This document shows, one piece after another, positions 36,608 through 55,567 of a stretch of DNA of 64,000 bases; within the stretch, counting starts at the first letter, position 1, and every line of letters starts with the position of its first letter. A model generated the notes under the pieces. The model saw only the letters and a program-made list of their open reading frames with translations. It was not told where the DNA came from and did no database searches. The translations under genes and the position numbers were made by a program. This DNA comes from Pseudomonas tohonis (GTDB lineage: Bacteria > Pseudomonadota > Gammaproteobacteria > Pseudomonadales > Pseudomonadaceae): contig NZ_AP023189.1 in assembly GCF_012767755.2 (NCBI RefSeq), positions 6,078,001 through 6,142,000 of the forward strand, read 5' to 3'.

Positions 36608-36637
36608 TTGCGAAGTAACCCGACGCTCGGGGATAAT
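36608..36637 (+). promoter_or_regulatory. Candidate sigma70 promoter of the aryl-polyene operon
   Basis: A -35 box TTGCGA (36608-36613, 4 of 6) and a -10 box GATAAT (36632-36637, 5 of 6) are 18 bases apart. The predicted leader of about 90 bases contains the palindromes CGACAA-GGCCT-TTGTCG (36661-36677) and AAGAGCTCTT (36721-36730), the latter just before the first start codon. Confidence 0.55.
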
Positions 36638-36733
36638 GCGGCACTTTGCTATGGCGTCATCGACAAGGCCTTTGTCGTTCAGGGATTGCCAGTCGACAAG
36701 GACGCCCGACAGGGGCCGAAAAGAGCTCTTAGC

Positions 36734-37456
36734 GTGACTCACTTCAGCATCGAACAATGGCGTGCCTGGGCCCCGGGCCTGGAAAGCGAGGACGACTGGC
36801 GCGCCTGGTGCAGGCAGCCGTTCGCGCCCGCCGACAGCGAAACACAGCCCGATGTCTCCTTCCTCCCCGCCATGCAGCGGCGCCGCCTGTCGCGCCTCGC
36901 ACGCATGGCGATGAGCGTCGCCTGGCCCCTGGCCGCCGAGGGCGAGCAACTGCCCATGGTGTTCGCCTCGCGCCACGGCGAGACGCCGCGCACCCTGGCC
37001 CTGCTGCAGGACCTGGCGCGCGGCGAGCCGCTGTCACCCACCCAGTTCAGCCTCTCGGTGCACAACGCGATCATCGGCCAGTGGTCGATCCTGCGCGGCG
37101 ACACCAGCGAGATGACCGCCCTGGCCGCCGAAGGCGATGGGCTGGAGCACGCGGTCCTGGAAGCCGCCGGCATGCTCGCCGAGGGCGCCCCGGCCGTGCT
37201 GCTGGTGATCACCGAGGAAAGCCCGCCGGAGATCTACCGCCCCTGGGTGGAGGACGTGCCCTTCCCCTACGCCGTCGCCCTCAGGCTCGCGCCCGGCGAC
37301 CAGTGGCAGCTGAGGCTGTCCCCCGAAGCGCCGGAACAGGCGCCGGAACCCTGGCCCCACGCACTGGGCCTGCTGCAAGCACTGCTCAACGATCTGCCCC
37401 ACCGTCAGCATCAATGGAAGAGCCGTAAATGGACCTGGCAACGCAACCGGCCCTGA
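36734..37456 (+). CDS. Beta-ketoacyl synthase-like chain-length-factor subunit (ApeC-like)
   Basis: A 240-residue protein of the ketosynthase-like N-terminal family (PF13723 type). FSLSVHNAIIGQWSI is the diagnostic block. It is only half the length of a ketosynthase and lacks an active-site cysteine motif, so it is probably a non-catalytic partner that pairs with a true ketosynthase such as the one at 51451, as ApeC does with ApeO in the E. coli aryl-polyene system (from memory). The start is taken as GTG 36734 (then THFSIEQW); the ribosome binding site is weak. It overlaps the next gene by 28 bases. First gene of the operon. Confidence 0.82.
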   Translation: MTHFSIEQWRAWAPGLESEDDWRAWCRQPFAPADSETQPDVSFLPAMQRRRLSRLARMAMSVAWPLAAEGEQLPMVFASRHGETPRTLALLQDLARGEPLSPTQFSLSVHNAIIGQWSILRGDTSEMTALAAEGDGLEHAVLEAAGMLAEGAPAVLLVITEESPPEIYRPWVEDVPFPYAVALRLAPGDQWQLRLSPEAPEQAPEPWPHALGLLQALLNDLPHRQHQWKSRKWTWQRNRP

Positions 37457-38241
37457 ACGCCCGCCCCAACGCCCCCTACTGGTGGCGCCTGATCGCCACC
37501 GCGCTGTCCTTCACCCTGTTCGGGGTCGGCGGCGTGCTGCTGCGCATCGTCGTGTTCCCGCTGCTCTCGCTGCTGCCGGGCGACGCCACCGACCACCGCC
37601 GCCGTGCCCGCGCCACCACCAGCCGGCTGTTCTGGCTGTTCGTCCAGTTCATGTACCGCAGCGGCGTGCTCACCTACGAGGTGGAAGGCGCCGAACGCCT
37701 GGGCCGCCCCGGGCAGATGATCATCGCCAACCACCCCTCGCTGATCGACGTGGTGGTGCTGATCGCCCTGATCCGCGACACCAACTGCGTGGTCAAGCAG
37801 AGCCTGTGGGACAACCCCTGCATGCGCGGCCCGATCCGCGCCGCCCAATACATCAGCAACAGCGGCAGCATGGACATGCTCGACGAGGCCGCCGCCGCCC
37901 TGCAGGAAGGCCAGACCCTGATCGTCTTCCCCGAAGGCACCCGCACCACGCCGGGGCAGGCCCCGCAATTCCACCGTGGCGCGGCCGCCATCGCCCTGCG
38001 CGGCGCCCGCATCCTCACCCCGGTGACCATCAGCGTGACCCCGACCACCCTGACCAAGGCCGAGCCCTGGTACAGCATTCCGTCGCGGCGCTTCCACTTC
38101 CACCTGCGCGTCGGCCAAGACATCGACCCGCAGAGCTTCGCCTCACAGGGGTCGGCACCCATCGCTTCACGCCGCCTCAACGACCATCTGCATCAATATT
38201 TCATGAAGGAGCTCGGCCTGGATGAGCGCTCTGCAACTTGA
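37429..38241 (+). CDS. PlsC-like lysophospholipid acyltransferase (ApeD-like)
   Basis: A 270-residue membrane-associated 1-acylglycerol-3-phosphate acyltransferase-fold protein. A hydrophobic N-terminal helix (ATALSFTLFGVGGVLLRIVVFPLL) precedes the catalytic NHPSLID motif (Asn101-Asp107, an NHx4D variant) and the FPEGTR acceptor-site motif. In aryl-polyene clusters such enzymes are thought to help mount the polyene on a lipid. Start overlaps the first gene and the end overlaps the ACP gene by 20 bases, so translation is probably coupled. Confidence 0.88.
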   Translation: MDLATQPALNARPNAPYWWRLIATALSFTLFGVGGVLLRIVVFPLLSLLPGDATDHRRRARATTSRLFWLFVQFMYRSGVLTYEVEGAERLGRPGQMIIANHPSLIDVVVLIALIRDTNCVVKQSLWDNPCMRGPIRAAQYISNSGSMDMLDEAAAALQEGQTLIVFPEGTRTTPGQAPQFHRGAAAIALRGARILTPVTISVTPTTLTKAEPWYSIPSRRFHFHLRVGQDIDPQSFASQGSAPIASRRLNDHLHQYFMKELGLDERSAT

Positions 38242-38482
38242 GATCAAGAACCTGATCATCGAGGCCCTGGGCCTCGAAGACATCGGCCCCGACGACATCG
38301 ACGCCGAACAGACCCTGTTCGGCGAAGGCCTGGGCCTGGACTCGGTGGACGCCCTGGAACTGGGCCTGGCCATCCAGAAGCGCTTCGGCATCAAGATCGA
38401 CGCCGATGCCAAGGACACCCGCAAACACTTTGCCAACGTGGCCAGCCTCGCGGCCTTCGTCTCGGCACAGAAAGCCGCCTGA
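38222..38482 (+). CDS. Acyl carrier protein 1 (ApeE-like)
   Basis: An 86-residue acidic acyl carrier protein. The phosphopantetheine attachment serine is Ser41 in GLGLDSVDALELG, followed by the usual helix III region. The polyene chain would be built on it. It is followed by a second, dissimilar ACP after 13 bases. Confidence 0.93.
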   Translation: MSALQLEIKNLIIEALGLEDIGPDDIDAEQTLFGEGLGLDSVDALELGLAIQKRFGIKIDADAKDTRKHFANVASLAAFVSAQKAA

Positions 38483-38495
38483 GGAAAAGACCGCG

Positions 38496-38750
38496 ATGCA
38501 AACCCGTGACGAGATCTTCACCACCCTGCGCGACGCCCTGGTCGAACTCTTCGAGCTGGACCCGGCGCAGATCAGCCTGGAATCCAACCTCTACGAGGAC
38601 CTGGAGATCGACAGCATCGACGCCGTCGACCTGATCGACCACATCAAGCGCCACACCGGCCGCAAGATCGCCGCCGAGGACTTCAAGGCCGTGCGCACCG
38701 TCAGCGACGTGGTCGAGGCCGTGCACCGCCTGGTGAACGAGCCCGCATGA
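38496..38750 (+). CDS. Acyl carrier protein 2 (ApeF-like)
   Basis: An 84-residue carrier protein with attachment serine Ser40 in LEIDSIDAVDLIDHI. The DSIDAVDL form differs from the first ACP, suggesting separate partners, for example one for starter loading and one for elongation. GAGG lies upstream of the ATG at 38496. Its stop overlaps the next start (ATGA). Confidence 0.93.
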   Translation: MQTRDEIFTTLRDALVELFELDPAQISLESNLYEDLEIDSIDAVDLIDHIKRHTGRKIAAEDFKAVRTVSDVVEAVHRLVNEPA

Positions 38751-39292
38751 GCCGCCTGATCGGGCTGCTGCTGGTGCTGGCCGGGCTGGGCTACCCCTTC
38801 GCCGTGTACTACGGCATGGAGCACCTGTCGCCGCGCCTGTTCGCCCTGCTGCTGGGCAGCCTCTGGCTGGCCCGCAGCCTGAGCGCCGCGCAACGCCCCG
38901 GCAACCGCTGGACGGCCGTCGCCGCCCTGGGTTTCTGCATGCTGCTGGGGCTGGTCAACCAGGCCGACCTGCTGCGCTGGTACCCGGTGCTGATGAGCGC
39001 CGTGCTGCTCGGCCTGTTCGGCGCCAGCCTGTTCCACGGCACCCCGCTGGTGGAACGCATGGCACGCCTGCGCGAGCCCGAGCTACCCGAGGTGGCGGTG
39101 CGCTACACCCGTCGCGTCACGGCCGTCTGGGCCGGGTTCTTCCTCGCTAACGGCCTGGTCGCCGCCGGCCTCACCCTGTGGGCACCGCTGAGCTGGTGGA
39201 CGCTCTACACCGGCTTCATCGCCTACCTGCTGATGGGCCTGCTGTTCGCCGGTGAATGGCTGGTGCGCCAGCGTGTACGGAGGTTCGCGTGA
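38747..39292 (+). CDS. Integral membrane protein of aryl-polyene clusters (ApeG/COG4648-like)
   Basis: A 181-residue protein with about six hydrophobic segments and no enzymatic motif. It begins MSRLIGLLLVLAGLGYPFAV. Proteins of this type always accompany the two ACPs in aryl-polyene operons; their role is unknown. The start overlaps the ACP2 stop and the end overlaps the ligase start by four bases each. Confidence 0.8.
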   Translation: MSRLIGLLLVLAGLGYPFAVYYGMEHLSPRLFALLLGSLWLARSLSAAQRPGNRWTAVAALGFCMLLGLVNQADLLRWYPVLMSAVLLGLFGASLFHGTPLVERMARLREPELPEVAVRYTRRVTAVWAGFFLANGLVAAGLTLWAPLSWWTLYTGFIAYLLMGLLFAGEWLVRQRVRRFA

Positions 39293-40950
39293 GCTGGATC
39301 GCCCTGCAAGACCTGCTGCTGCAGGCCGACCCGCGACGCCCGGTCACCCTGGCCCCGGCACTGGACCAGGCCGCCCTCGCCGAACAGGCCCTGCGCCTGG
39401 CCGGCGCCCTCCGGACCCGTGGCGCGCGGCGCGTCGCGCTCTACCTCGAAGACGGCGCCGAGCTGGCCGCCGCCCTGCTGGCCGCCTGGCGTGCCGGCAT
39501 CGACGTGCTGTTGCCGGCCGACGCCCAGGCGCAGACCCGCAAGCGCCTGGCCGAACGCTGCGACCTCTGGCTCGATAGCCTCGACGGCCTCGATGGCGAG
39601 CCGCTGGCCCCCGCCGCCCTTGACCTGGACGCCTGCCGCCTGGTGCTGTGCACCTCCGGCTCCAGCGGCGAGGCCAAGCTGATCGACAAGACCCTGCGCC
39701 AGCTGGCCAATGAAGTCCAAGCCCTGGAAACCCTCTGGGGCGCCGACCTCGCCGGTGCGACCCTGGTCGCCAGCGTCTCCGCCCAGCACATCTACGGCCT
39801 GCTGTTCCGCGTGCTCTGGCCGCTGTGCGCCGGCCGCCCCTTCGTGCGCCGGGCGCAGCCCTTCGCCGAGGACATCCAGCAGGCCAGCCTGGAAGCCGGC
39901 GACTTCGCCTGGATCGCCAGCCCCGCCCTGCTCAAGCGCATGGGCGACAACCTCGACTGGCCCGCCCTGCGCGGCGTGCGCCGGGTGTTCTCCTCCGGCG
40001 GCGCCCTGCCCGCCGAAGCCGCCGCCGAGTTGCAGCAACGCCTCGGCCAGTGGCCCACGGAAATCTACGGCAGCTCCGAAACCGGCGGCATCGCCTGGCG
40101 CCAGGGCGGCGCCCTGTGGCAGCCCTTCGCCGGCGTCGAGCTGGGCCGGGACGAGGAAGGCGCGCTGAACCTCGCCTCGCCCTACCTGCCCGCCGGCCAC
40201 CGCGAACAGACCGCCGATGCCGTGCGCATCGACGCCGACGGCCGCTTCGAACTGCTCGGCCGGCTCGACCGCATCGTCAAGCTGGAAGAAAAACGCATCT
40301 CCCTGCCCATGCTGGAACAGGCCCTGGGCGAACACCCCTGGGTGACCGAGGCCCGCCTGGGCGTGGTGCAGGAAGGCCGCGCCTTCCTCGGCGCGCTGGT
40401 GGCCCTGAGCACCGAGGGCATCCATGCCCTGCGCAACCAGGGTCGGCGCACCGTCACCGAGACCCTGCGCCGCCACCTGGCCGGCCACTGCGAAACCATC
40501 GCCCTGCCGCGCCGCTGGCGCCTGCTGCGCCAGTTGCCCTGGAGCAGCCAGGGCAAGCTGCCCCAGGCGCTGGTGGAGAACCTGGTCAAGGCCCCCCGTC
40601 CGAAGACGGTGGAGCCACTGGCCAGCCGCGAAATCGACGGTGAATGGCAGCTGGAGCTGGAAGTGCCGCTGGACCTGGCGCACTTCTCCGGCCACTTCCC
40701 ACGCACACCGGTCCTGCCCGGCGTGGTGCAGATCGACTGGGCCCAGCACCTCGCCCGCCAGGTCATGACCCTGCCCCCGCGCTTCGCCGGCATGGAGGTC
40801 CTCAAGTTCCAGCAACTGGTCCGCCCCGGCGACCGCCTGCAACTGTCCCTGCGCTTCGACACCGACAAGGGCAAGCTCTACTTCGCCTACCGCAACGGCG
40901 AAGCCGCCTGCTCCTCCGGGCGCATCCTGCTGGTGGCCGACCATGCGTAA
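39289..40950 (+). CDS. AMP-dependent aryl acid ligase fused to a hotdog dehydratase (ApeH-ApeI type)
   Basis: A 553-residue two-domain protein. Residues 1-440 are an ANL-family adenylating domain with the P-loop LVLCTSGSSGEAKLIDK, the substrate/ATP loop EIYGSSETGGIAWR and GRLDRIVKLEEKRIS. It should activate an aryl acid and load it on an ACP. Residues from about 446 form a FabZ/ApeI-like dehydratase with HFSGHFPRTPVLPGVVQIDWAQ, in which Asp stands where FabZ has its catalytic Glu. In the E. coli system these are two genes (from memory). The GTG start at 39289 overlaps the previous stop (GTGA) and has GGAGG upstream. The stop is within ATGCGTAA, see the repeat element next door. Confidence 0.9.
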   Translation: MSWIALQDLLLQADPRRPVTLAPALDQAALAEQALRLAGALRTRGARRVALYLEDGAELAAALLAAWRAGIDVLLPADAQAQTRKRLAERCDLWLDSLDGLDGEPLAPAALDLDACRLVLCTSGSSGEAKLIDKTLRQLANEVQALETLWGADLAGATLVASVSAQHIYGLLFRVLWPLCAGRPFVRRAQPFAEDIQQASLEAGDFAWIASPALLKRMGDNLDWPALRGVRRVFSSGGALPAEAAAELQQRLGQWPTEIYGSSETGGIAWRQGGALWQPFAGVELGRDEEGALNLASPYLPAGHREQTADAVRIDADGRFELLGRLDRIVKLEEKRISLPMLEQALGEHPWVTEARLGVVQEGRAFLGALVALSTEGIHALRNQGRRTVTETLRRHLAGHCETIALPRRWRLLRQLPWSSQGKLPQALVENLVKAPRPKTVEPLASREIDGEWQLELEVPLDLAHFSGHFPRTPVLPGVVQIDWAQHLARQVMTLPPRFAGMEVLKFQQLVRPGDRLQLSLRFDTDKGKLYFAYRNGEAACSSGRILLVADHA

Positions 40951-41324
40951 GGCCAGCGCTGCCCTCTCAACCGTGGATATGAACCTGCCGCTCTGGATCG
41001 ACGAACACCTGCTCGTGCCCCGCTCAGAAGGTGGGCGGGGCAAACGCCCCTTCAGCAGGCCGAATGCAGGCGTTACGCAGGAGGACGTGCGGCATGGATG
41101 CCGCGAGAGGCGTGTCAGGCCATGGATGGCCTGTCGCGCCGACCTCCGGAGCGACGCCGGAGTGAGGGCACCCCGGCAACGCCGGGGCCGGATGCAGGGG
41201 CAAGCCTTTTTGGTTCCTTTTGGGGCGACTGCCAAAAGGAACTCGCCCGGCAAGGCGAAACAGGCGCTTTCCGCCAGGCACGGCAATCAGCCAGACGCCC
41301 ACGTACTTCAAGGGGAAGCGCGCA
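40951..41324. repeat. Hairpin-rich noncoding element interrupting the aryl-polyene operon
   Basis: These 374 bases carry no supportable gene. Between 41017 and 41242 there are six successive hairpins: GCCCCGC/GCGGGGC (41017-41041), GCGGCAT/ATGCCGC (41089-41104), CAGGCCAT/ATGGCCTG (41116-41133), CTCCGG/CCGGAG (41144-41162), CCCCGGC/GCCGGGG (41171-41187) and GTTCCTTTTGG/CCAAAAGGAAC (41213-41242). The last hairpin with its AGCCTTTTTGG context resembles, in my memory, a dispersed intergenic repeat common in Pseudomonas. All other gaps in this operon are under 15 bases, so this is an insertion. Confidence 0.78.
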
Positions 41325-42059
41325 ATGTTTAAGCCCTGCGCCGTCATCCCCGTCTACAACCACGAGCACGCCCTGCCCCTGGTGGTCGACGCCCTGCGCC
41401 AGCACGGCCTGCCCTGCGTGCTGGTGGACGACGCCTCCAGCCCCGCCTGCGCCCAGGTGATGGACCAGCTGGCCACCCAGCCCGACGTCCACCTGGTGCG
41501 CCTGGCGGTGAACCAGGGCAAGGGCGGCGCCGTCATGGCCGGCCTGCGCGAAGCCGGCCGGCTGGGCTTCTCCCACGCCCTGCAGGTGGACGCCGACGGC
41601 CAGCACGACCTCGAAGACGTACAGCGCTTCCTCGCCGCCGCCGAAAACCGCCCGGGCGAGCTGATCTGCGGCTACCCGCAGTACGACGAGAGCGTGCCGA
41701 AAAGCCGCCTCTACGCCCGCTACCTGACCCACGTGTGGGTGTGGATCAACAGCCTGTCGCTGTCGATCCGCGACGGCATGTGCGGCTTCCGCGTCTACCC
41801 CCTGGCGCCAACCATCGCCCTGATCGATTCCACCCGCCTCGGCAAGCGCATGGATTTCGACCCGGAAGTCCTCGTGCGCCTGGCCTGGCGCAACCAGCCC
41901 ATGCACTGGCTGCCGACCAAGGTGCACTACCCGCTGGACGGGCTCTCGCACTTCCGCCTGTTCCACGACAACGCGCTGATCTCCAAGATGCACGCCAAGC
42001 TGTTCTTCGGCATGCTCCTGCGCGCCCCACTGATCCTCTGGCGCAGGTGCCGGCCATGA
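41325..42059 (+). CDS. GT2-family glycosyltransferase (ApeJ-like)
   Basis: A 244-residue GT-A glycosyltransferase, related to dolichol-phosphate mannosyltransferase. PCAVIPVYNHEHALPLVVDAL is the N-terminal strand, LVDDASSP binds the nucleotide and LQVDADGQHD carries the metal-binding DxD. It probably transfers a sugar onto the lipid or polyene carrier at the inner membrane. The ATG at 41325 has AGGGGAAG upstream, but that site lies at the edge of the inserted element, so expression here may depend on it. An upstream ATGCGTAAG at 40943 may be the remnant of the ancestral coupled start. Confidence 0.87.
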   Translation: MFKPCAVIPVYNHEHALPLVVDALRQHGLPCVLVDDASSPACAQVMDQLATQPDVHLVRLAVNQGKGGAVMAGLREAGRLGFSHALQVDADGQHDLEDVQRFLAAAENRPGELICGYPQYDESVPKSRLYARYLTHVWVWINSLSLSIRDGMCGFRVYPLAPTIALIDSTRLGKRMDFDPEVLVRLAWRNQPMHWLPTKVHYPLDGLSHFRLFHDNALISKMHAKLFFGMLLRAPLILWRRCRP

Positions 42060-42988
42060 GCGAAGGACACTGGGCACGCCAGGACGAGCGCGGCAGCTTC
42101 CTGCTGATGAAGTTCACCGCCCTGGCGGTGCGCCACCTGGGCCGGCGCGTGCTCAGCCCGCTGCTCTACGTCATCGTCTTCTACTTCTTCCTCTTCGGCA
42201 CCAAGGCCCGGCGCAGTGCCCGGCGCTACCAGGCCAACCTCGCCGCCTGGAGCGGCCGCCCGGAGCTGGCGCCCACCCTCGGCTCGGTGTTCGCCCAGTT
42301 CATGGCTTTCGCCGACGCCCTGCTGGACAAGCTCGACATCTGGCGCGGCAAGCTGCCCCTGGAGCGCATCGAACTGGTGGACCCGACCGGCCTGCGCCAG
42401 CAGTTGCGCGGCGGGCGCGGCCAACTGCTGGTCGGCGCGCACCTGGGCAACCTGGAGGTGTGCCGCGCCCTGGCCGAGCTGGGCGAGAAGGTGCAGATGA
42501 ACGTGCTGGTGCACACCCGCCACGCCGAACGCTTCAATCGCCTGCTGGGCGAGGCCGGCGCGAGCCACCTGCGGCTGATCCAGGTCAGCGAGCTGGACCC
42601 GGCGATCATGCTGCAATTGAGCGAACGCCTGGAGCGCGGCGAGTGGCTGGCTATCGCCGGCGACCGCGTGCCGCTGCACGGCGGGCGCACCACCCAGGTC
42701 GATTTCCTCGGCCACCCCGCCGCCTTTCCCCAGGGCCCCTGGCTGCTGGCCGGGCTGCTCAAGTGCCCGCTCAACCTGATGACCTGCCTGAAGATCGACG
42801 GCCGCTACAAGGTCTTCCTCGAACCCTTCGCCGAGCGCGTGCAATGGCGCCGCAGCGAGCGTGACGCGGTGATCGAAGGCTGGGTCCAACGCTATGCCCA
42901 GCGCCTCGGCGAGCTGTGCCTGAAGGCCCCCGAGCAATGGTTCAACTTCTACCCGTTCTGGAACGAACATGACGACACATCAGCCTGA
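42056..42988 (+). CDS. LpxL/HtrB-like lysophospholipid acyltransferase
   Basis: A 310-residue membrane-bound acyltransferase of the lipid A biosynthesis (LpxL/WaaM) superfamily. A membrane helix (VLSPLLYVIVFYFFLFGTKARRS) precedes the catalytic GAHLGNLEVCRAL (HxxxxE variant) and AIAGDRVPLHGGR. It would acylate the polyene headgroup or its lipid anchor. Its ATG overlaps the glycosyltransferase stop (ATGA) and its 3' end overlaps the ammonia-lyase gene by 20 bases. In some aryl-polyene clusters this and the GT are fused. Confidence 0.88.
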   Translation: MSEGHWARQDERGSFLLMKFTALAVRHLGRRVLSPLLYVIVFYFFLFGTKARRSARRYQANLAAWSGRPELAPTLGSVFAQFMAFADALLDKLDIWRGKLPLERIELVDPTGLRQQLRGGRGQLLVGAHLGNLEVCRALAELGEKVQMNVLVHTRHAERFNRLLGEAGASHLRLIQVSELDPAIMLQLSERLERGEWLAIAGDRVPLHGGRTTQVDFLGHPAAFPQGPWLLAGLLKCPLNLMTCLKIDGRYKVFLEPFAERVQWRRSERDAVIEGWVQRYAQRLGELCLKAPEQWFNFYPFWNEHDDTSA

Positions 42989-44510
42989 ACCCGTGGTCTT
43001 CGGCGAGCTGCCGCTGTCCATCGAGCAGGTCGTGGCCCTCTCCCAGCGCCGCGCCTCCGCCCTGCTGCAGGGCGACGCCGCCTGGCGCGAGCGCATCGCC
43101 AAGGGCGCGCGCTTCCTCGACACCCTGCTGGACAAGGAAGGCGTGATCTACGGCGTCACCACCGGCTACGGCGACTCCTGCGTGGTGGCCGTGCCGCTGG
43201 AGCAGGTCGAGGCCCTGCCGCGCCACCTGTTCACCTTCCACGGCTGCGGCCTGGGCAAGGTGCTGGACGAGGCCGCCACCCGCGCGGTGCTGGCGGCGCG
43301 CCTGCAGTCGCTGTGCCACGGCGTTTCCGGCGTACGCGTGGAGCTGCTGGAGCGCCTGCGGGCGTTCCTCGAGCACGACGTGCTGCCGGTGATCCCGGAG
43401 GAAGGCTCGGTGGGCGCCAGCGGCGACCTCACCCCGCTGTCCTACGTGGCCGCCACCCTCTCCGGCCAGCGCGAGGTGCTCTACCAGGGCCAGCGCCGCA
43501 GCGCCGCCGAGGTGCACGCCGAGCTGGGCTGGCAGCCCCTGGTGCTGCGCCCCAAGGAAGCCCTGGCGCTGATGAACGGCACCGCCGTGATGACCGCCCT
43601 GGCCTGCCTGGCCTACGCCCGCGCCGACTACCTGCTGCAACTGGCCACCCGCATCACCGCGCTCAACGTGGTGGCGCTGGAGGGCAACCCCGAGCATTTC
43701 GACGAGCGCCTGTTCGCCGCCAAGCCGCACCCGGGGCAGATGCAGGTGGCCGCCTGGCTGCGCCAGGACCTGGCCATCGACGCGCCGACCGCGCCGCTGC
43801 ACCGCCTGCAGGACCGCTACTCGCTGCGCTGCGCGCCCCATGTGCTGGGCGTGCTGGCCGACAGCCTGGGCCTGTTGAGGCAGTTCATCGAAACCGAGCT
43901 GAACAGTGCCAACGACAACCCGCTGATCGACGCCGAGGCCGAGCGCGTCCTGCACGGCGGGCACTTCTACGGCGGCCACATCGCCTTCGCCATGGACAGC
44001 CTGAAGAACCTGGTGGGCAACGTCGCCGACCTGCTCGACCGCCAGCTCGCCCTGCTGGTGGACGTGCGCTACAACCACGGCCTGCCGAGCAACCTCTCCG
44101 GCGCGCCCCAGGCCACGGCGATGATCAACCACGGCTTCAAGGCCGTGCAGATCGGCGCCAGCGCCTGGACCGCCGAGGCACTGAAGAACACGATGCCGGC
44201 CAGCGTCTTCTCACGCTCCACCGAGTGCCACAACCAGGACAAGGTGAGCATGGGCACCATCGCCGCCCGCGACGCCCTGCGCAGCCTGGAGCTGACCGAG
44301 CAGGTGGCCGCCGCCACCCTGCTGGCCGCCAACCAGGGCGTCTGGCTGCGCCAGCGCGAGAACCCGCGCGCACTGCCCGAGCCGCTCACCGCCATGCACC
44401 GGCAACTGGCCGGGGACTTCCCGCCGGTGATCGAGGACCGCGCCCTGGAAGGCGAGCTGCGCCTGTGCCTGGAACGCATCCGCGCCCGCCACTGGAGGCT
44501 CTATGCGTAG
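42969..44510 (+). CDS. Aromatic amino acid ammonia-lyase (HAL/PAL/TAL family)
   Basis: A 513-residue enzyme that deaminates an aromatic amino acid to an aryl acrylate. The self-forming MIO prosthetic group comes from Ala150-Ser151-Gly152 in VGASGDLTPLSYVA. The catalytic Tyr61 is in YGVTTGYGDS. The selectivity loop reads LFTFHGCGLG (residues 87-96), unlike the SH pair of histidine lyases. With an AMP-ligase and ACPs next to it, tyrosine or phenylalanine giving coumarate or cinnamate as polyene starter is the best hypothesis. hut genes are absent, so histidine catabolism is unlikely. Full family length. Confidence 0.9.
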   Translation: MTTHQPEPVVFGELPLSIEQVVALSQRRASALLQGDAAWRERIAKGARFLDTLLDKEGVIYGVTTGYGDSCVVAVPLEQVEALPRHLFTFHGCGLGKVLDEAATRAVLAARLQSLCHGVSGVRVELLERLRAFLEHDVLPVIPEEGSVGASGDLTPLSYVAATLSGQREVLYQGQRRSAAEVHAELGWQPLVLRPKEALALMNGTAVMTALACLAYARADYLLQLATRITALNVVALEGNPEHFDERLFAAKPHPGQMQVAAWLRQDLAIDAPTAPLHRLQDRYSLRCAPHVLGVLADSLGLLRQFIETELNSANDNPLIDAEAERVLHGGHFYGGHIAFAMDSLKNLVGNVADLLDRQLALLVDVRYNHGLPSNLSGAPQATAMINHGFKAVQIGASAWTAEALKNTMPASVFSRSTECHNQDKVSMGTIAARDALRSLELTEQVAAATLLAANQGVWLRQRENPRALPEPLTAMHRQLAGDFPPVIEDRALEGELRLCLERIRARHWRLYA

Positions 44511-48998: not shown

Positions 48999-50226
48999 AA
49001 TCCAGCAGCGCCAGGTCGTGGTCATCGGTGCCGGCCCCTCCGGCGCCATCGCCGCCGCCCTGCTCAAGCGCAAGGGCCACGATGTGCTGATCCTCGAGCG
49101 CCAGCGCTTCCCGCGCTTCTCCATCGGCGAGAGCCTGCTGTCCCATTGCCTGGACTTCATCGAGGAAGCGGGGATGCTCGAAGCGGTCATGGCCGCCGGC
49201 TTCCAGATCAAGCACGGCGCGGCCTTCGCCTGGGGCGGGCGCTACACCGCCTTCGATTTCCGCGACAAGTTCACCCCCGGCAAAGGCACCACCTTCCAGG
49301 TACAGCGGGCCGACTTCGACAAGCTGCTGGCCGACCAGGCCGAGCTGCAGGGCGTGGAGATCCGCTACGAGGAGGAGATCATCGCCGCCGACTTCTCCAG
49401 CGACTGCCCGCGCCTGACCGTGCAGCGCCTGGACGGCAGCCAGTACCAGGTGGAGACCGCCTTCGTCCTCGACGGCAGCGGCTACGGCCGGGTGCTGCCG
49501 CGCCTGCTGGACCTGGAGGCGCCGTCCAGCTTCCCGGTGCGCCAGGCGGTGTTCACCCATATCGAGGACCGCATCGACGATGCCGGCTTCGACCGCGAGA
49601 AGATCCTCATCAGCATCCACCCCGAGCACCGTGACATCTGGTTCTGGCTGATCCCCTTCAGCAACGGCCGCTGCTCCCTGGGCGTGGTGGGCGAAGCCGG
49701 CCGCTATGCGGGCCGCCCCGAGGACCTGGATGCCTGCCTCAAGGGCTTCATCGCCGAGACGCCGAACCTGCGCCGCCTGCTGGCCAATGCCGTGTGGGAC
49801 ACCCCGGCCCGCGCCCTGGGCGGCTACTCGGCCAACGTGAAGGCCTTGCACGGCCCGGGCTTCGCCCTGCTGGGCAACGCGGCCGAGTTCCTCGACCCGG
49901 TGTTCTCCTCCGGCGTGACCATCGCCATGCGCTCGGCGAGCATGGCCGCGGCGGTGCTCGACCGGCAGCTGAACGGCGAACAGGTGGACTGGGAGAGCGA
50001 GTTCGCCACGCCGCTGAAGAAGGGCGTGGACACCTTCCGTGCCTACGTCGAGGGCTGGTACGAGGGCAGCTTCCAGGACGTGATCTTCCATGAGGGCGGG
50101 TCGCCGGAAATCCGCGGGATGATCTGCTCGATCCTCGCCGGCTACGCCTGGGACACGCGCAACCCCTTCGTCGCCGAGCCCAAGCGCCGCCTGCGCATGA
50201 TCAGCGAATTCTGCGCCACGGAATGA
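48985..50226 (+). CDS. FAD-dependent halogenase-like oxidoreductase
   Basis: A 413-residue flavoprotein. The Rossmann motif GAGPSG (15-20) binds FAD. ILERQRFPRFSIGESLL is shared with flavin-dependent halogenases. The halogenase signature WxWxIP is complete (Trp219, Trp221, Ile223, Pro224 in DIWFWLIPF), and Lys76 in FQIKHGAAFAWG aligns with the haloamine lysine of PrnA-type enzymes (Lys79). The family members acting on carrier-bound phenols and pyrroles are closest in pattern. Halogenation of the aryl head is plausible because xanthomonadins are brominated, but some relatives with these motifs are hydroxylases. Confidence 0.85.
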   Translation: MKPIEIQQRQVVVIGAGPSGAIAAALLKRKGHDVLILERQRFPRFSIGESLLSHCLDFIEEAGMLEAVMAAGFQIKHGAAFAWGGRYTAFDFRDKFTPGKGTTFQVQRADFDKLLADQAELQGVEIRYEEEIIAADFSSDCPRLTVQRLDGSQYQVETAFVLDGSGYGRVLPRLLDLEAPSSFPVRQAVFTHIEDRIDDAGFDREKILISIHPEHRDIWFWLIPFSNGRCSLGVVGEAGRYAGRPEDLDACLKGFIAETPNLRRLLANAVWDTPARALGGYSANVKALHGPGFALLGNAAEFLDPVFSSGVTIAMRSASMAAAVLDRQLNGEQVDWESEFATPLKKGVDTFRAYVEGWYEGSFQDVIFHEGGSPEIRGMICSILAGYAWDTRNPFVAEPKRRLRMISEFCATE

Positions 50227-50237
50227 GGGAGCCGACC

Positions 50238-50966
50238 ATGGAACGCGCCGCCGCCACCTACGTCGAGGAGACCCGCTTCGGCTTCTGGTTCCTGCAGAGC
50301 CACACCTGGCAGCACCACGTGCTGCGCGTGGCGATCAACGACCTCAGGGGCCTGTTCAGCGAGCCGTTGCCGGAGGCGCCGGTGCTGCTGGACGCCGGCT
50401 GCGGCCAGGGCAAGTCCTTCCGCCTGCTGGCGGACGCCTTCGCCCCGGCGCGGATGATCGGCCTGGACGCCGACCCGCACAGCCTCGACTGCTCCCGCGC
50501 CGAGGCCGAGCGCCTGGGCCTGGAGGTGCAGCTGGTGAGCAGCGACTGCGCCGCGATCGCCCTGCCGGACGCCAGCGTCGACCTCCTCTTCTGCCACCAG
50601 ACCTTCCACCACCTGGTGGAGCAGGAGCGCGCCCTGGCCGAGTTCTGGCGGGTGCTGAAGCCGGGCGGCTACCTGCTGTTCGCCGAATCCACGCGCTACT
50701 ACATCGACACCTGGGTGATCCGCTGGCTGTTCCGCCATCCGATGCACGTGCAGCGCACCGCCGAGCAGTACCTGGAGATGCTGCGCGGCCAGGGCTTCGT
50801 CTTCGAAGCGCGCAATGTGTCCTACCCCTACCTGTGGTGGAGCCGCTCCGCCGACTTCGGCCTGCTGGAGCGCTGGGGGCTGCGCAACCCGCCGCCGCCC
50901 GGCCAGCGCAACGAGACCCTGGTCAACGCCGTGGCGCGCAAGCCGCTGGAGAATGACGGTCGATGA
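50238..50966 (+). CDS. Class I SAM-dependent methyltransferase
   Basis: A 242-residue methyltransferase of the Methyltransf_11 type. Motif I is VLLDAGCGQGKSFRLL, the acidic end of strand 2 is IGLDADPHS and motif IV/post is LLFCHQTFHHLVEQERAL. It probably methylates the aryl headgroup or its phenolic oxygen, as aryl polyenes often carry a methyl. I prefer ATG 50238, which has GAGGGAG seven bases upstream, over ATG 50223, which overlaps the previous stop but has no ribosome binding site. Confidence 0.88.
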   Translation: MERAAATYVEETRFGFWFLQSHTWQHHVLRVAINDLRGLFSEPLPEAPVLLDAGCGQGKSFRLLADAFAPARMIGLDADPHSLDCSRAEAERLGLEVQLVSSDCAAIALPDASVDLLFCHQTFHHLVEQERALAEFWRVLKPGGYLLFAESTRYYIDTWVIRWLFRHPMHVQRTAEQYLEMLRGQGFVFEARNVSYPYLWWSRSADFGLLERWGLRNPPPPGQRNETLVNAVARKPLENDGR

Positions 50967-51454
50967 AGCGCCTGCTGCTCGCCGGCCTGTGCCTGCTGCT
51001 CGCCGCCTGTGCGGCGCGTACGCCGGTGCCCGAACGACCGCCACGGCTGGACCTGCCGCAATCCCTGCAGGTGCAGCGCCAGGCGCAGGGCGAGACCCGC
51101 GACTGGCTGCTGGTGGTGCAGGCCGAGGGGCCGGCGTTGCGCTGGTCGCTGTTCGACCCGCTGGGGGTGCCCCTGTCGCGCCAGGTGCTGGAGGACGGCT
51201 CCTGGCGCAACGACGGCCTGCTGCCGCCCAACGACGAGGCCCGCGAACTCTTCGCCGCGCTGCTCTATGCCCTGGCCCCGGCCGAGGCATTGCAGCCGGC
51301 CTACGCCGGTATCGAGCAACGCATCGCCACCGATGGCCGGCGCGAGCTGGCCGGACGCTGGAGCATCGCCTACCGCGCGCCGCTGGACTTCGACCTGCAG
51401 CGCCGCGACGGCCCGCACTACCGAATCACCGCTCTCGACGAGGAACCCCGATGA
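50963..51454 (+). CDS. DUF3261-type lipoprotein (ApeN-like)
   Basis: A 163-residue lipoprotein. The signal peptide MKRLLLAGLCLLLAACAA has lipobox LAAC with Cys16. It is typical of aryl-polyene operons and probably accepts the product from the LolA-like carrier at the outer membrane. The Ala at +2 argues against inner-membrane retention. Four-base overlaps on both sides. Confidence 0.87.
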   Translation: MKRLLLAGLCLLLAACAARTPVPERPPRLDLPQSLQVQRQAQGETRDWLLVVQAEGPALRWSLFDPLGVPLSRQVLEDGSWRNDGLLPPNDEARELFAALLYALAPAEALQPAYAGIEQRIATDGRRELAGRWSIAYRAPLDFDLQRRDGPHYRITALDEEPR

Positions 51455-52638
51455 TCGCCAATCTCAATGCCCTGGGCCTGGTCTGCGCCCTGGGCCAGGG
51501 CAAGCAGGCGGTGGCCGACGCGCTGTTCGCCGGCGACGCATCGGGCATGCGCCGCCAGGCCGGCTGGGTCGCGGGACGCGAACTGAGCATCGGGGCGGTG
51601 CCCGGCGAGCTGCCGGCCATGCCCGCCGGCCTGGAGGCCTGCCAGAGCCGCAACAACCAGTTGCTGCTGGCCGCCGCGCTGGAGATCGAGCCGCAGTTGC
51701 GTGCCGCCATCGAGCGCCATGGCCTGGACCGCGTGGGCATCGTCCTCGGTACCAGCACCTCGGGCATCCAGGAAGCCAGCGAAGGCATTGGCGAACACCT
51801 GCGCACCGGCACCCTGCCGGATGACTACCGCTACCCGCAGCAGGAGCTGGCCGCCCCGGCCGCCTTCCTCGCCGCCTGGCTGGGCACGCGCGGCCCGGCC
51901 TATTGCATCTCCACCGCCTGCACCTCCAGCGCCCGCGCCCTGCTCAGCGCACGCCGGCTTCTGGCACTCGGCGTGTGCGACGCGGTGATCTGCGGCGGCG
52001 TGGATTCGCTCTGCGGCCTCACCCTCAATGGGTTCAGCGCGCTGGAAGCGGTCTCCGCCGAGCCCTGCAACCCGCTGTCGCGCAACCGCAACGGCATCAA
52101 CATCGGCGAAGGCGCGGCGCTGTTCCTGCTCGACCGCGAGCCGGGACCCATCGCCCTGCTGGGTGCCGGCGCCTGCTCCGACGCGCACCACATCTCGGCC
52201 CCGGAGCCCGCAGGCGTCGGGGCCCAGCGCGCCATGCGCCTGGCCCTGGCCGACGCCGGGACCAACGCCGAAGGCATCCACTACCTGAACCTGCATGGCA
52301 CCGCCACGGTGCACAACGACGCCATGGAGAGCCATGCCACCGCCGCGCTGTTCCCCGCCGGGCTGCCGGTGTCGTCCACCAAGCCGCTGACCGGCCATAC
52401 CCTGGGCGCCGCCGGTGCGCTGGAGGCCGCCTTCTGCTGGCTGGCGCTGAGCGGGCACAACCGCGACCGCCTGCTGCCGCCGCACCTGTGGGACGGCGAG
52501 GCCGACCCCGAGCTGCCCGCGTTGGAGCCGGCGCACCGTGGCCGCGCCCTGGAGCCATCCTCGGGCCGCCGCCTGATGAGCAATTCGTTCGCCTTCGGCG
52601 GCAGCAACATCAGCCTGATCATCGGAGATGCGCCATGA
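51451..52638 (+). CDS. Beta-ketoacyl-ACP synthase (ApeO-like)
   Basis: A 395-residue type II ketosynthase. The catalytic triad is Cys157 (CISTACTSSA), His282 (NLHGTATVHND) and His316 (TGHTLGAAG), with Lys311 nearby. It condenses malonyl-ACP onto the growing polyene. In the E. coli system the equivalent pairs with the chain-length-factor-like ApeC (from memory), here encoded at 36734, 15 kb away in the same operon. Confidence 0.92.
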   Translation: MIANLNALGLVCALGQGKQAVADALFAGDASGMRRQAGWVAGRELSIGAVPGELPAMPAGLEACQSRNNQLLLAAALEIEPQLRAAIERHGLDRVGIVLGTSTSGIQEASEGIGEHLRTGTLPDDYRYPQQELAAPAAFLAAWLGTRGPAYCISTACTSSARALLSARRLLALGVCDAVICGGVDSLCGLTLNGFSALEAVSAEPCNPLSRNRNGINIGEGAALFLLDREPGPIALLGAGACSDAHHISAPEPAGVGAQRAMRLALADAGTNAEGIHYLNLHGTATVHNDAMESHATAALFPAGLPVSSTKPLTGHTLGAAGALEAAFCWLALSGHNRDRLLPPHLWDGEADPELPALEPAHRGRALEPSSGRRLMSNSFAFGGSNISLIIGDAP

Positions 52639-53084
52639 ACGACTGGCCGATTGCCGAGCTGGTCCCCCATGCCGGGGACATGATCCTCATCGACCGCGTC
52701 CTGCGCTTCGGCGACGAGGACGTGGAAACCCTCGCCACCGTGCGCCCCGGGCTGTTCAGCCAGGACGACGGCAGCCTGCCGGCCTGGGTCGGCGTGGAGC
52801 TGATGGCCCAGAGCATCGCCGCCTACGCCGGCTGCCAGGCGCGCCAGGCGGGGCTTCCCGTGGAGCTGGGCTTCCTGCTCGGCACCCGCAACTATCAATG
52901 CGACGTCGACCGCTTCCCGGCCGGCGCCGAGCTGCACATCAGCGCCACCCGCACGCTGCAGGACGACAACGGCATGGGCGTGTTCGAATGCCGCCTGGAA
53001 GGGCCGGGCCTCACGGCCTTCGCCCGCCTCAACGTCTTCCGTCCGCCGCAGGTGGCCAGTTACCTGGAGGAACCCCAACCATGA
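52635..53084 (+). CDS. 3-hydroxyacyl-ACP dehydratase (ApeP-like, hotdog fold)
   Basis: A 149-residue single hotdog domain: ELVPHAGDMILIDRV is the N-terminal active-site segment with His12, and WVGVELMAQSIAAYAG the central helix with the acidic residue. It dehydrates beta-hydroxyacyl-ACP to the 2-enoyl form. No enoyl reductase is encoded, which fits a fully unsaturated product. It may pair with the dehydratase domain of the ligase fusion. Confidence 0.9.
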   Translation: MNDWPIAELVPHAGDMILIDRVLRFGDEDVETLATVRPGLFSQDDGSLPAWVGVELMAQSIAAYAGCQARQAGLPVELGFLLGTRNYQCDVDRFPAGAELHISATRTLQDDNGMGVFECRLEGPGLTAFARLNVFRPPQVASYLEEPQP

Positions 53085-53809
53085 GCGAGACCATCCTGGT
53101 CACCGGCTCCAGCCGTGGCATCGGCCGCGCCATCGCCCTGCGCCTGGCGCGCGCCGGCTTCGACCTGGTGCTGCATTGCCGCTCGCGCCGCGACGAAGCC
53201 GACGCGGTGAAGGCCGAGATCCAAACCCTGGGCCGCAGCGCCCGGGTGCTGCAGTTCGATGTCTCCGACCGCGCCGCCTGCCGCGAGCAGCTGGAGGCCG
53301 ACGTGGAAGCCCATGGCGCCTACTACGGCGTGGTGTGCAACGCCGGCCTGACCCGCGACGGCGCCTTCCCGGCCCTCAGCGAGGACGACTGGGACAGCGT
53401 GCTGCGCACCAACCTGGACGGTTTCTACAACGTGCTGCACCCGCTGTGCATGCCGATGATCCGCCGCCGCAAGCCGGGACGCATCGTCTGCATCACCTCG
53501 GTCTCGGGCCTGATCGGCAACCGTGGCCAGGTCAACTACAGCGCGTCCAAGGCCGGCGTGATCGGTGCGGCCAAGGCCCTGGCCATCGAGCTGGGCAAGC
53601 GCCGCATCACGGTCAACTGCGTGGCCCCGGGGCTGATCGATACCGAGATACTCGACGAGCAGGTGCCGGTGGAGGAGATCCTCAAGATGGTCCCGGCGCA
53701 GCGCATGGGCACGCCGGAAGAAGTGGCCGGCGCCGTGAATTTCCTGATGTCCGAGGAGGCGGGGTACATCACCCGCCAGGTCCTCGCTGTGAATGGTGGG
53801 TTGTGCTGA
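53081..53809 (+). CDS. 3-oxoacyl-ACP reductase FabG-type (ApeQ-like)
   Basis: A 242-residue short-chain dehydrogenase/reductase. The cofactor loop is TGSSRGIGRA (8-17), and the catalytic residues are Ser140, Tyr153 and Lys157 (VNYSASKAG). Basic residues in HCRSRRDE suggest NADPH. It reduces the beta-keto group in each elongation cycle. Overlaps the dehydratase stop by four bases. Confidence 0.93.
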   Translation: MSETILVTGSSRGIGRAIALRLARAGFDLVLHCRSRRDEADAVKAEIQTLGRSARVLQFDVSDRAACREQLEADVEAHGAYYGVVCNAGLTRDGAFPALSEDDWDSVLRTNLDGFYNVLHPLCMPMIRRRKPGRIVCITSVSGLIGNRGQVNYSASKAGVIGAAKALAIELGKRRITVNCVAPGLIDTEILDEQVPVEEILKMVPAQRMGTPEEVAGAVNFLMSEEAGYITRQVLAVNGGLC

Positions 53810-55035
53810 TGAAACGCGTCGTCATTACCGGCATGGCCGGCGTCACCTCCCTGGGCAACGACTGGGCCGGCATCTCGGCCAACTTCCTGGGCAACCGCAG
53901 CGGCATCCGCCGCATGGACGAGTGGGACCGCTTCACCGAGCTGAACACCCGCCTGGCCGGCCCCATCGATGATTTCGCCACGCCCTCGCACTGGACGCGC
54001 AAGCAGATGCGCAGCATGGGTCGCGTCTCCAAGCTGGCGGTCTACGCGGCGGAGCGGGCGCTGGCCGACGCGGGGCTGGCGGGTGAGGCGATGATCAAGG
54101 ACGGGCGCATGGGCGTGGCCTGTGGCTCGTCCACCGGCAGCACCGACGAGATCAAGGCCTTCGGCAACATGCTGCTGAACTCGGTGGCGGACGGCCTCAA
54201 CGCCAACTCCTACGTGCGCATGATGCCGCACACGGCAGCGGCCAATATCAGCATCTTCTTCGGCCTCAAGGGCCGCCTGATCCCCACCTCCAGCGCCTGC
54301 ACCAGCGGCAGCCAGGGCATCGGCTACGCCTATGAGGCGATCAAGTTCGGCCGCCTGCCGATGATGCTCGCCGGCGGCGCCGAGGAGCTCTGCCCCACCG
54401 AGGCGATGGTGTTCGATGCGCTCTACGCCACCAGCCTGAAGAACGACGCCCCGCACACCTCGCCGCGTCCCTACGACAGCGGCCGCGACGGCCTGGTGAT
54501 CGGCGAAGGCGCCGGCATCCTGGTGCTGGAGGAGCTGGAGCATGCCCTGGCCCGGGGCGCGAAGATCCACGCCGAGATCGTCGGCTTCGGCTGCAACGCC
54601 GATGGCCAGCACACCACCAAGCCGGAGCAGGCGACCATGCGCGGGGCGATGGAGCTGGCCCTGGCCGACGCCGGCCTGGCACCGGAGGCCATCGGCTACG
54701 TCAACGGCCACGGCACCGCCACCGAGCAGGGCGACGTGGCGGAGACGCTCGCCACCAGCAGCCTGTTCGGCGCGCGCATGCCCATCAGCTCGCAGAAGAG
54801 CTTTCTCGGCCACACCCTGGGCGCCTGCGGCGCGCTGGAGTCCTGGTTCAGCATCGAGATGATGAACAGCGACCAGTACATCCACACCCTCAACCTCGAT
54901 GCCGTGGACCCGGCCTGCGGCGAGCTCGACTACCTGCGTGGCGAGCCCCGGCAGATGAGCAACGAATACGTGATGAACAACAACTTCGCCTTCGGTGGGG
55001 TCAACACCTCGTTGATCTTCCGTCGCTGGCGCTGA
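53809..55035 (+). CDS. Beta-ketoacyl-ACP synthase (ApeR-like)
   Basis: A 408-residue ketosynthase with triad Cys164 (TSSACTSGSQ), His301 (NGHGTATEQGD) and His335 (FLGHTLGACG). It is FabF-like and distinct from the ketosynthase at 51451; it may act in early condensations or set chain length. Its ATG shares one base with the reductase stop (TGATG). It is the last gene of the tightly packed operon; the next gene follows after 43 bases. Confidence 0.93.
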   Translation: MKRVVITGMAGVTSLGNDWAGISANFLGNRSGIRRMDEWDRFTELNTRLAGPIDDFATPSHWTRKQMRSMGRVSKLAVYAAERALADAGLAGEAMIKDGRMGVACGSSTGSTDEIKAFGNMLLNSVADGLNANSYVRMMPHTAAANISIFFGLKGRLIPTSSACTSGSQGIGYAYEAIKFGRLPMMLAGGAEELCPTEAMVFDALYATSLKNDAPHTSPRPYDSGRDGLVIGEGAGILVLEELEHALARGAKIHAEIVGFGCNADGQHTTKPEQATMRGAMELALADAGLAPEAIGYVNGHGTATEQGDVAETLATSSLFGARMPISSQKSFLGHTLGACGALESWFSIEMMNSDQYIHTLNLDAVDPACGELDYLRGEPRQMSNEYVMNNNFAFGGVNTSLIFRRWR

Positions 55036-55078
55036 CTTCCAAGCCCCCATACCCAACAAGACCGTCAAGGAGACGACC

Positions 55079-55525
55079 ATGAGCCTCAAGACCTGGACCG
55101 CTGTTGCTGTACTGTCCGCCGCTGTTCTGCCCGGCATCAGCCAGGCCCGCGATACCGTGCATTACCTCGACTTCAATTCGGTGGTCACCGAGGCCGTGCA
55201 GGCAGGACGCCTGGATGGCAGCGTGAAGTTCTACCTGGCCGGCAACACCCCCGCCGGCAAGGTGACGGTGATCAACCCCAACATCACCACCAACCAGAAG
55301 ACCAACGCCTTCAACAAGAGCGACGAGGAAGCCTGCCGCTGGGTGCTGCAGTCCGCCCTGATCCGCCTGCAGGACGCGGCCAAGTCGGCCGGCGCCAACG
55401 CGGTGGTGGACATCGCCAGCAACTACAAGCGCAAGGAATACAAGGACGCCAGCAAGTACGAGTGCCACGCGGGCGCCTTCGTCGCCGGCGTCGCCCTCAA
55501 GGGCGCCATCGCCAACGTCAAGTAA
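55079..55525 (+). CDS. Small exported protein, often mislabelled 'excinuclease ATPase subunit'
   Basis: A 148-residue protein with Sec signal MSLKTWTAVAVLSAAVLPGISQA. The mature part has LQDAAKSAGANAVVDIASNYKRKEY, resembling small periplasmic proteins of the YbjQ/excinuclease-labelled type, with two cysteines (EEACRW and YECHAG) that could pair. It has no ATPase motifs, so the common database name is not supported. Function unknown. It follows the last ketosynthase by 43 bases and is closed by a terminator, so it may be co-transcribed with the polyene operon. Confidence 0.8.
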   Translation: MSLKTWTAVAVLSAAVLPGISQARDTVHYLDFNSVVTEAVQAGRLDGSVKFYLAGNTPAGKVTVINPNITTNQKTNAFNKSDEEACRWVLQSALIRLQDAAKSAGANAVVDIASNYKRKEYKDASKYECHAGAFVAGVALKGAIANVK

Positions 55526-55544
55526 GGCGTTGCAGCTGTTGGGG

Positions 55545-55567
55545 AAGGCCGCGCGAGCGGCCTTTTT
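55545..55567 (+). terminator. Rho-independent terminator at the end of the aryl-polyene transcript
   Basis: A stem AAGGCCGC (55545-55552) and GCGGCCTT (55557-55564) with tetraloop GCGA is followed by TTTTT. It closes the unit ending at 55525. Confidence 0.9.

Follow-up and report, generated by a model that had tools for sequence, protein, structure and literature searches.

The 64,000-nucleotide stretch of the Pseudomonas tohonis genome analyzed here (contig NZ_AP023189.1, positions 6,078,001 to 6,142,000; hereafter the window) carries an aryl-polyene (APE) gene cluster between the ParA gene and hemE. We read it, with a probability of about 0.93, as a complete APE operon of the Pseudomonadaceae type that has long occupied the ParA-hemE interval in this family and has been lost in most species of the genus. 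Aryl polyenes are very common yellow membrane pigments of Gram-negative bacteria. The operon is complete, ordinary in kind and, judging from its sequence, probably working. Of 37 Pseudomonas genomes, 23 have predicted APE clusters (PMC8704066), so the kind is already known in this group; statements taken from the papers cited here refer to the parts of their text consulted. The source genome (our label G000) is a single contig of 6,826,062 bases.

Translation and profile scanning of the open reading frames in the window placed 20 genes on the + strand between positions 36734 and 55035. With the start codons chosen in our analysis, neighboring genes overlap by 1-28 bases at 17 of the 19 junctions, which agrees with the co-directional, almost entirely overlapping genes described in a sequence-only reading of this DNA. 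At the other two junctions the genes are separated, by 7 bases (38483-38489) and by 374 bases (40951-41324). The span of 36608..55567 given in that reading is longer than the operon itself: a GTG start at 36734 is likelier for the first gene than 36608, the 20th gene stops at 55035 and not at 55567, and 55079-55525 is a 21st, associated gene. Promoter and terminator scans gave a single promoter-like site upstream, at 36608-36637, and otherwise nothing decisive. The features are listed below with profile matches and with BLASTP identities to Escherichia coli Ape proteins.

36734..37456, + strand: ApeC-like half ketosynthase/chain-length factor (PF13723, E 1.6e-78; 33% to E. coli ApeC, E 1e-34)
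37429..38241, + strand: ApeD-like lysophospholipid acyltransferase (PF01553; ApeD 41%, E 1.5e-41)
38222..38482, + strand: ApeE-like acyl carrier protein (ACP) (PF00550; ApeE 59%)
38490..38750, + strand: ApeF-like ACP (PF00550; ApeF 57%)
38747..39292, + strand: ApeG-like membrane protein without a Pfam family (ApeG 49% over 127 residues, E 1.6e-38)
39289..40950, + strand: ApeH AMP-ligase fused to an ApeI dehydratase domain (PF00501 and PF22818; successive parts match ApeH, E 4e-50, and ApeI, E 1e-11)
40951..41324, + strand: intergenic insert with a hairpin-rich, TwoAYGGAY-like dispersed repeat at about 41040-41292 (RF01731 match at 41081-41146 and repeat matches)
41325..42059, + strand: GT2 glycosyltransferase, the N-terminal half of ApeJ (PF00535; ApeJ 5-242, 57%)
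42056..42988, + strand: LpxL-type acyltransferase, the C-terminal half of ApeJ (PF03279; ApeJ 246-550, 37%)
42969..44510, + strand: MIO-type aromatic amino acid ammonia-lyase (PF00221, E 8.6e-159)
44503..44928, + strand: ApeK-like 4HBT thioesterase (PF13279; ApeK 50%)
44925..45524, + strand: ApeL, LolA-like periplasmic carrier (PF19574, LolA_3; ApeL 30%, E 2e-19)
45514..47844, + strand: ApeM, MMPL/RND-type exporter, start codon uncertain (PF03176; ApeM 29%, E 1.7e-54)
47841..48998, + strand: NapA/KefC-fold antiporter-like membrane protein, extra relative to the E. coli APE cluster (AlphaFold2 model and Foldseek)
48985..50226, + strand: flavin-dependent halogenase-like protein (PDB 3nix, E 1.6e-106; CmlS, E 5.8e-42)
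50223..50966, + strand: S-adenosylmethionine-dependent methyltransferase, not ApeB-like (PF08241; no significant match to ApeB)
50963..51454, + strand: ApeN-like DUF3261 lipoprotein (PF11659, a name common to the E. coli gene; no significant BLASTP match)
51451..52638, + strand: ApeO elongating ketosynthase (PF00109/PF02801; ApeO 49%)
52635..53084, + strand: ApeP dehydratase (PF22817; ApeP 35%)
53081..53809, + strand: ApeQ ketoreductase (NCBIfam FabG2, above cut-off; ApeQ 58%)
53809..55035, + strand: ApeR ketosynthase (NCBIfam NF006587, above cut-off; ApeR 55%)
55079..55525, + strand: small protein with a signal-peptide-like start, 'excinuclease' or YbjQ-like by source names; the 21st, cluster-associated gene

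The APE cluster of E. coli CFT073 (apeA-apeR) provides the main comparison. Sixteen of the 20 window genes correspond to ApeC-ApeR in the same order. BLASTP against the 18 ape genes, at E 1e-11 or better and with the order kept, matched 15 of these 16 (ApeC, D, E, F, G, H, I, J, K, L, M, O, P, Q, and R); the sixteenth, ApeN, has the Pfam name DUF3261 in common with its window counterpart and nothing more. On this evidence the APE identity proposed in the sequence-only reading stands. ApeH and ApeI are separate in E. coli and one fused protein in the window, and the single ApeJ of E. coli is represented by two window proteins. Four window genes lie beyond the E. coli set, encoding the ammonia-lyase, the antiporter-like protein, the halogenase-like protein, and the methyltransferase unrelated to ApeB. 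Against the reading of a complete operon, the same search found no counterpart of ApeA or ApeB among the window proteins.

Functionally, the operon contains a ketosynthase-chain-length factor pair with a half-size chain-length factor (the PF13723 half ketosynthase and the ApeO-like ketosynthase), a second FabF/B-type ketosynthase (ApeR), a ketoreductase, two dehydratases, ACPs, and an AMP-ligase. The export set ApeG/L/M/N, with ApeN recognized by Pfam name only, and the attachment enzymes ApeD/J are also present. Every function named from the letters alone was recovered by profile searches. Four products were left unnamed there: the antiporter-like protein (47841-48998), the halogenase-like protein (48985-50226), the ApeG-like protein (38747-39292), and the 4HBT thioesterase (44503-44928). 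The reported absence of an enoyl reductase from the operon was borne out. The only candidate, the sole short-chain dehydrogenase/reductase (SDR) protein at 53081-53809, matches PF13561, which is described as 'enoyl-(ACP) reductase', yet it passes the NCBIfam FabG and FabG2 cut-offs and is 58% identical to ApeQ, and is therefore a FabG-type ketoreductase rather than an enoyl reductase.

Conservation of catalytic residues, as known for each enzyme family, was examined across 103 loci, with a gene counted where at least 60% of it aligned. These loci include 80 found through the antiporter-like gene (the best 80 of 174) and the near-duplicates L049/L071, L033/L072, and L064/L074. The Cys-His-His residues of the ApeO ketosynthase are kept in 102/102 aligned loci and those of ApeR in 101/101, 101/101, and 100/100. 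Likewise kept are the ketoreductase Tyr/Lys (102/102), Asp317 and Asp702 of the MMPL exporter ApeM (99/99), and the dehydratase His wherever it could be aligned. The ACP Ser is visible in only 22 of the 103 loci because the named loci end short of the ACPs.

In relatives, ApeR and ApeO/ApeC elongate an ACP-bound aryl starter, and ApeQ and ApeI/P process the chain; ApeD/J are proposed to anchor the polyene and ApeG/L/M/N to export it (PMC8253772, PMC8358021). Homology predicts that the AMP-ligase portion of 39289-40950 loads an aromatic acid onto the ACP ApeE and that ApeR and ApeO/ApeC elongate this starter with malonyl units. Each unit would be reduced by FabG (ApeQ) and dehydrated by ApeI/ApeP, and the chain would remain a conjugated polyene because there is no enoyl reductase. 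The two acyltransferases and the GT2 glycosyltransferase would then join the polyene to lipid, and ApeG/L/M/N would carry it to the outer membrane. The ammonia-lyase may provide a cinnamate- or coumarate-type starter acid, and the halogenase-like protein and methyltransferase may modify the aryl ring. The predicted product would reside in the outer membrane as a polyene anchored to lipid.

Ammonia-lyase genes help to place the operon among known APE types. Both the APE-Vf cluster of Aliivibrio fischeri and reported Pseudomonas APE clusters have an ammonia-lyase beside the APE core, as in the window, and the Pseudomonas studies regard this gene as typical of APE-Vf-type clusters or as resembling them (PMC5851621, PMC8719888). 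In its ammonia-lyase, the window operon fits this APE-Vf type already reported in Pseudomonas. The text consulted makes no mention of an antiporter-like gene in these clusters (PMC5851621, PMC8719888), a comparison made at the level of descriptions and not gene by gene.

Xanthomonadin (pig/xan) clusters have the APE core and a halogenase-like gene in common with the window operon, which had earlier been called xanthomonadin-like. A cluster of that type would be expected to turn 3-hydroxybenzoate into an aryl octaene that carries bromine or chlorine. The halogenase-like gene favors this assignment, as its product has the Lys and WxWxIP motif, and Xanthomonas clusters, unlike the Lysobacter cluster, include a halogenase gene (PMC3691225). 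However, xanB2 is located in Xanthomonas clusters (PMC3691225), and xanthomonadin clusters are described as having no second ACP (PMC8253772), whereas the window operon has two ACPs (38222-38482 and 38490-38750) and an ammonia-lyase, and a search confined to the operon found no xanB2 or pteridine-dependent dioxygenase family among the matches of its 20 proteins. Moreover, a Pseudomonas cluster with an ammonia-lyase was judged closer to APE-Vf than to xanthomonadin (PMC5851621). We therefore consider a xanthomonadin-type cluster unlikely; the earlier label is partly supported, through the halogenase-like gene, and too narrow.

The distribution of the cluster differs between the genus and the family. 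ParA and hemE are each present in 18 of 18 genomes from the genus and ApeR in 4, so that the cluster is accessory at this level, as the sequence-only reading had it. In all 14 APE-less genomes the ParA and hemE matches end 107-2014 bp apart (less than 230 bp in 11 of them), and none of the 20 cluster genes was found in these intervals at E 0.001. Across the family, ApeR is present in 170 of 298 genomes and in 17 of 19 genera. Linkage to hemE was counted on the 88 genomes listed for both genes (places were listed for 150 of the 170 genomes with ApeR and for 150 of the 295 with hemE). ApeR and hemE share a contig in 82 of these 88, and in 81 of the 82 they are in facing orientation within 25 kb; the distance is less than 3 kb in 39 genomes, 3-6 kb in 24, 6-13 kb in 16, and 13-25 kb in 2. 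Comparison of synteny between ParA and hemE, as suggested in the sequence-only reading, thus gives a cluster that is patchy within the genus (missing from 14 of 18 genomes) in a position that is family-wide.

Twenty further loci were hand-picked from 12 other genera among the ApeR genomes, most of them bearing the antiporter-like gene, and because they were hand-picked their shares are not frequencies. Gene order is the same across these loci, missing genes aside, and ParA adjoins the other end of the cluster in 12 of the 20. Unrooted flank trees from seven genomes split three APE-bearing genomes from four APE-less ones, with support of 1.0 for the left flank and 0.71 for the right. Divergence between the source genome and G004, another APE-bearing member of the genus, is 0.18 in the cluster, 0.18 in the left flank, and 0.13 in the right flank. 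These comparisons fit best with a position that is old and family-wide and from which the cluster has disappeared in most of the genus. Identities of ApeR and hemE are weakly correlated over 87 genomes (rho 0.25, p 0.02), which we did not use as evidence. No published account of the APE-hemE linkage, or of an APE pigment from Pseudomonas, was recognized in a limited literature search, in which 'hemE' also matched 'heme'.

Several observations weigh against this history. In G128 (L069), the sole exception among the 82 listed genomes, an antiporter-bearing cluster lies 2 Mb from hemE, possibly through transfer or rearrangement, and in 6 of the 88 listed genomes ApeR and hemE are on different contigs. 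The hemE tree places G004 apart from the lineage of the source genome, with outgroups intermixed, and hemE of the source genome is 96% identical to that of APE-less G006 and 89% identical to that of APE-bearing G004. The ParA tree groups the four APE-bearing members of the genus with APE-bearing outgroups. The ParA-cluster-hemE arrangement is unbroken in G000 and G009 only, and is split over contigs in G004 and G008.

Two alternative histories were weighed. The sequence-only reading had the cluster inserted in a conserved core region; a recent horizontal insertion between ParA and hemE in the lineage of the source genome would agree with the side-by-side position of these genes in 14 of 18 genus genomes, and with hemE, which is nearer in the source genome to APE-less G006 than to G004 and whose tree parts the source genome from G004. 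However, the hemE-linked position in 81 of 82 listed family genomes, ParA at the other side in 12 of the 20 picked loci, and flank trees that hold the APE-bearing genomes together argue against such an event. GC content of the cluster is similar to or higher than that of its flanks, and scanning of eight flanking genes gave no match to integrase or transposase families (two of the eight matched nothing). Recent insertion was rejected as quite improbable because the hemE linkage is family-wide, and insertion as an event is unsupported. Regain by recombination in one lineage from a G004-like donor, a suspicion first raised by the ParA and hemE identities, may have occurred but was set aside as the less likely course. 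The hemE tree does disagree with the flank trees, but G004 is nearer to the source genome than the APE-less genomes are in most left-flank bins holding G004 sequence, and the flank trees concur; a common clade explains both. Long residence with losses in the genus therefore remains our preferred history.

Ammonia-lyases select their substrates at two positions that we take to be Phe90-His91 in the window protein. This pair is present in 96/96 aligned loci and aligns to Phe-Leu of the phenylalanine/histidine ammonia-lyase 2nyn; the Ala-Ser-Gly triad is likewise kept in 96/96. The usual pairs are Phe-Leu in phenylalanine, His-Leu in tyrosine, and Ser-His in histidine ammonia-lyases, and the Phe-His pair differs from all three. 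By this sequence comparison, the substrate cannot be read from the pair. In the halogenase-like protein, Lys76 and the WxWxIP motif are kept in 102/102 aligned loci, and the nearest PDB entry, 3nix, is a flavoprotein. A flexirubin or dialkylresorcinol cluster, toward which 3nix and the matches of the ammonia-lyase, SDR, and LolA-like proteins to the flexirubin NCBIfam models FlxA, FlxB, and LolA2 might point, is very improbable, as these matches fall under the cut-offs (304.7 vs. 700, 267 vs. 340, and 43 vs. 125 bits) and no KAS III-type or resorcinol-synthase family appeared among the matches of the 20 proteins, in searches that were not aimed at these families.

The methyltransferase gene is present in 12 of the 20 picked loci from other genera and was not found in eight (L055, L056, L059, L060, L061, L064, L068, and L070), so head-group methylation may vary across the family. 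The gene at 55079-55525 lies behind ApeR in 19 of the 20 picked clusters. Its relatives within the genus occur only in the 4 APE genomes among 18 and are missing from the 14 APE-less genomes. Profile scanning gave it no Pfam family, and source annotations call its relatives 'excinuclease' or YbjQ-like. It is a 21st gene that travels with the APE operon.

The antiporter-like gene at 47841-48998 overlaps its neighbors by 4 and 14 bases. Its product has no Pfam match at E 0.001, including Na_H_Exchanger (PF00999), which was found on some of its relatives, and NCBIfam and PDB sequence searches gave no identification. Source annotations of relatives already read 'sodium:proton antiporter'. An AlphaFold2 model built from 48 sequences had a mean pLDDT of 85.7 and a pTM of 0.82. 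Among solved structures, Foldseek gave NapA (5bz2) as the best match (TM 0.65) and KefC (8bxg) as the third (TM 0.61), with an rmsd of about 6; NhaA also matched, and identity to the 50 Foldseek matches listed was 10-20%. By this model, the protein has the CPA/NhaA fold.

Ion binding in CPA proteins involves a two-residue site, DD, ND, or QD. The window family has the fold in common with NapA and KefC, which are presumably CPA2 antiporters, and has conserved Asp163 and Lys296. It differs from them in the Met, Ile, or Val before Asp163 and in the location of the gene in APE operons. Asp163, Lys296, Arg327, and Glu331 are kept in 99/99 aligned loci, and the residue preceding Asp163 is Met in 34, Ile in 64, and Val in 1.

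The antiporter-like gene is present in 75 of 298 family genomes, compared to 170 for ApeR, which indicates that it is optional in APE operons. It lies 4.1-6.3 kb from ApeR on the same strand in 73 of 73 genomes with both genes listed. G023 (L056) also has it within the cluster, giving co-location in 74 of 75; G039 was left out of this check. A class-wide draw of 369 genomes gave one match besides the source genome, at 31% identity. It is an APE-operon gene of Pseudomonadaceae, and a literature search of limited depth found no published link between it and APE. It is possible, at clearly less than even odds, that a NapA/KefC-fold carrier has joined the APE export machinery of Pseudomonadaceae as a dedicated part working alongside the MMPL exporter, its ion site rewired to a hydrophobic residue followed by Asp, together with conserved Lys296.

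The 374-base gap at 40951-41324 is absent from the close relative G009, whose ApeHI and GT2 genes overlap by about 8 bases. In G004 the insert stands at the same place in altered form, without an Rfam match. The inner 250 bases or so have at least 34 further matches in the source genome (40 of 70 candidates scored), in some cases as two fragments of a single copy. Nothing was found for the insert in Rfam at the gathering cut-off; the RF01731 (TwoAYGGAY) match at 41081-41146 scores 40.7 bits (E 4.7e-5), below the cut-off of 43. Of the other copies, all 20 that were compared (L154-L173) match TwoAYGGAY at 35.6-57.8 bits. Matches number at least 32 in the source genome, at least 17 of them over the cut-off (150 of 303 candidates scored), and occur in at least 14 of 18 genus genomes (89 candidates scored per genome) and in 0 of 14 control genomes among the candidates scored. 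A TwoAYGGAY copy also lies behind the APE cluster in G004 (G004:C44:38759-38825), where the contig ends about 500 bases further; this repeat may have caused the assembly break.

The insert has an RNA fold z-score of -3.64, and its predicted fold contains two hairpins with AUGGAU at the loop. In a 21-copy alignment, 20 of 65 predicted pairs are changed on both sides, a count that overstates independence because the copies are related. A cis-regulatory role is disfavored by the table of the discoverers of TwoAYGGAY, which gives it as probably RNA and probably not cis-regulatory (PMC2864571), although its Rfam class is Cis-reg. TwoAYGGAY has been proposed to bind CsrA owing to its GGA loops, and the AUGGAU loops of the insert resemble RsmA/CsrA sites (PMC4333381). 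The insert carries candidate RsmA/CsrA-binding hairpins. A further conjecture from the sequence is that this element, lying between apeHI and apeJ, subjects the latter half of the operon to RsmA/CsrA regulation in this strain; it is less likely than the dedicated carrier and not part of its odds. A TwoAYGGAY-like repeat inside an APE operon was not found described in print in a search of limited depth.

This analysis turns an apparent insertion into an old position with losses, and two side features of the operon stand out, the antiporter-like gene and the TwoAYGGAY-like repeat. A many-copy repeat of this kind in a biosynthetic operon is a place to test the CsrA-binding proposal (PMC4333381). 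The antiporter-like gene is a lineage-specific candidate for an export component. If it does encode a dedicated carrier, a second ion gradient would be linked to APE assembly or export by way of a protein that the E. coli APE cluster does not have.

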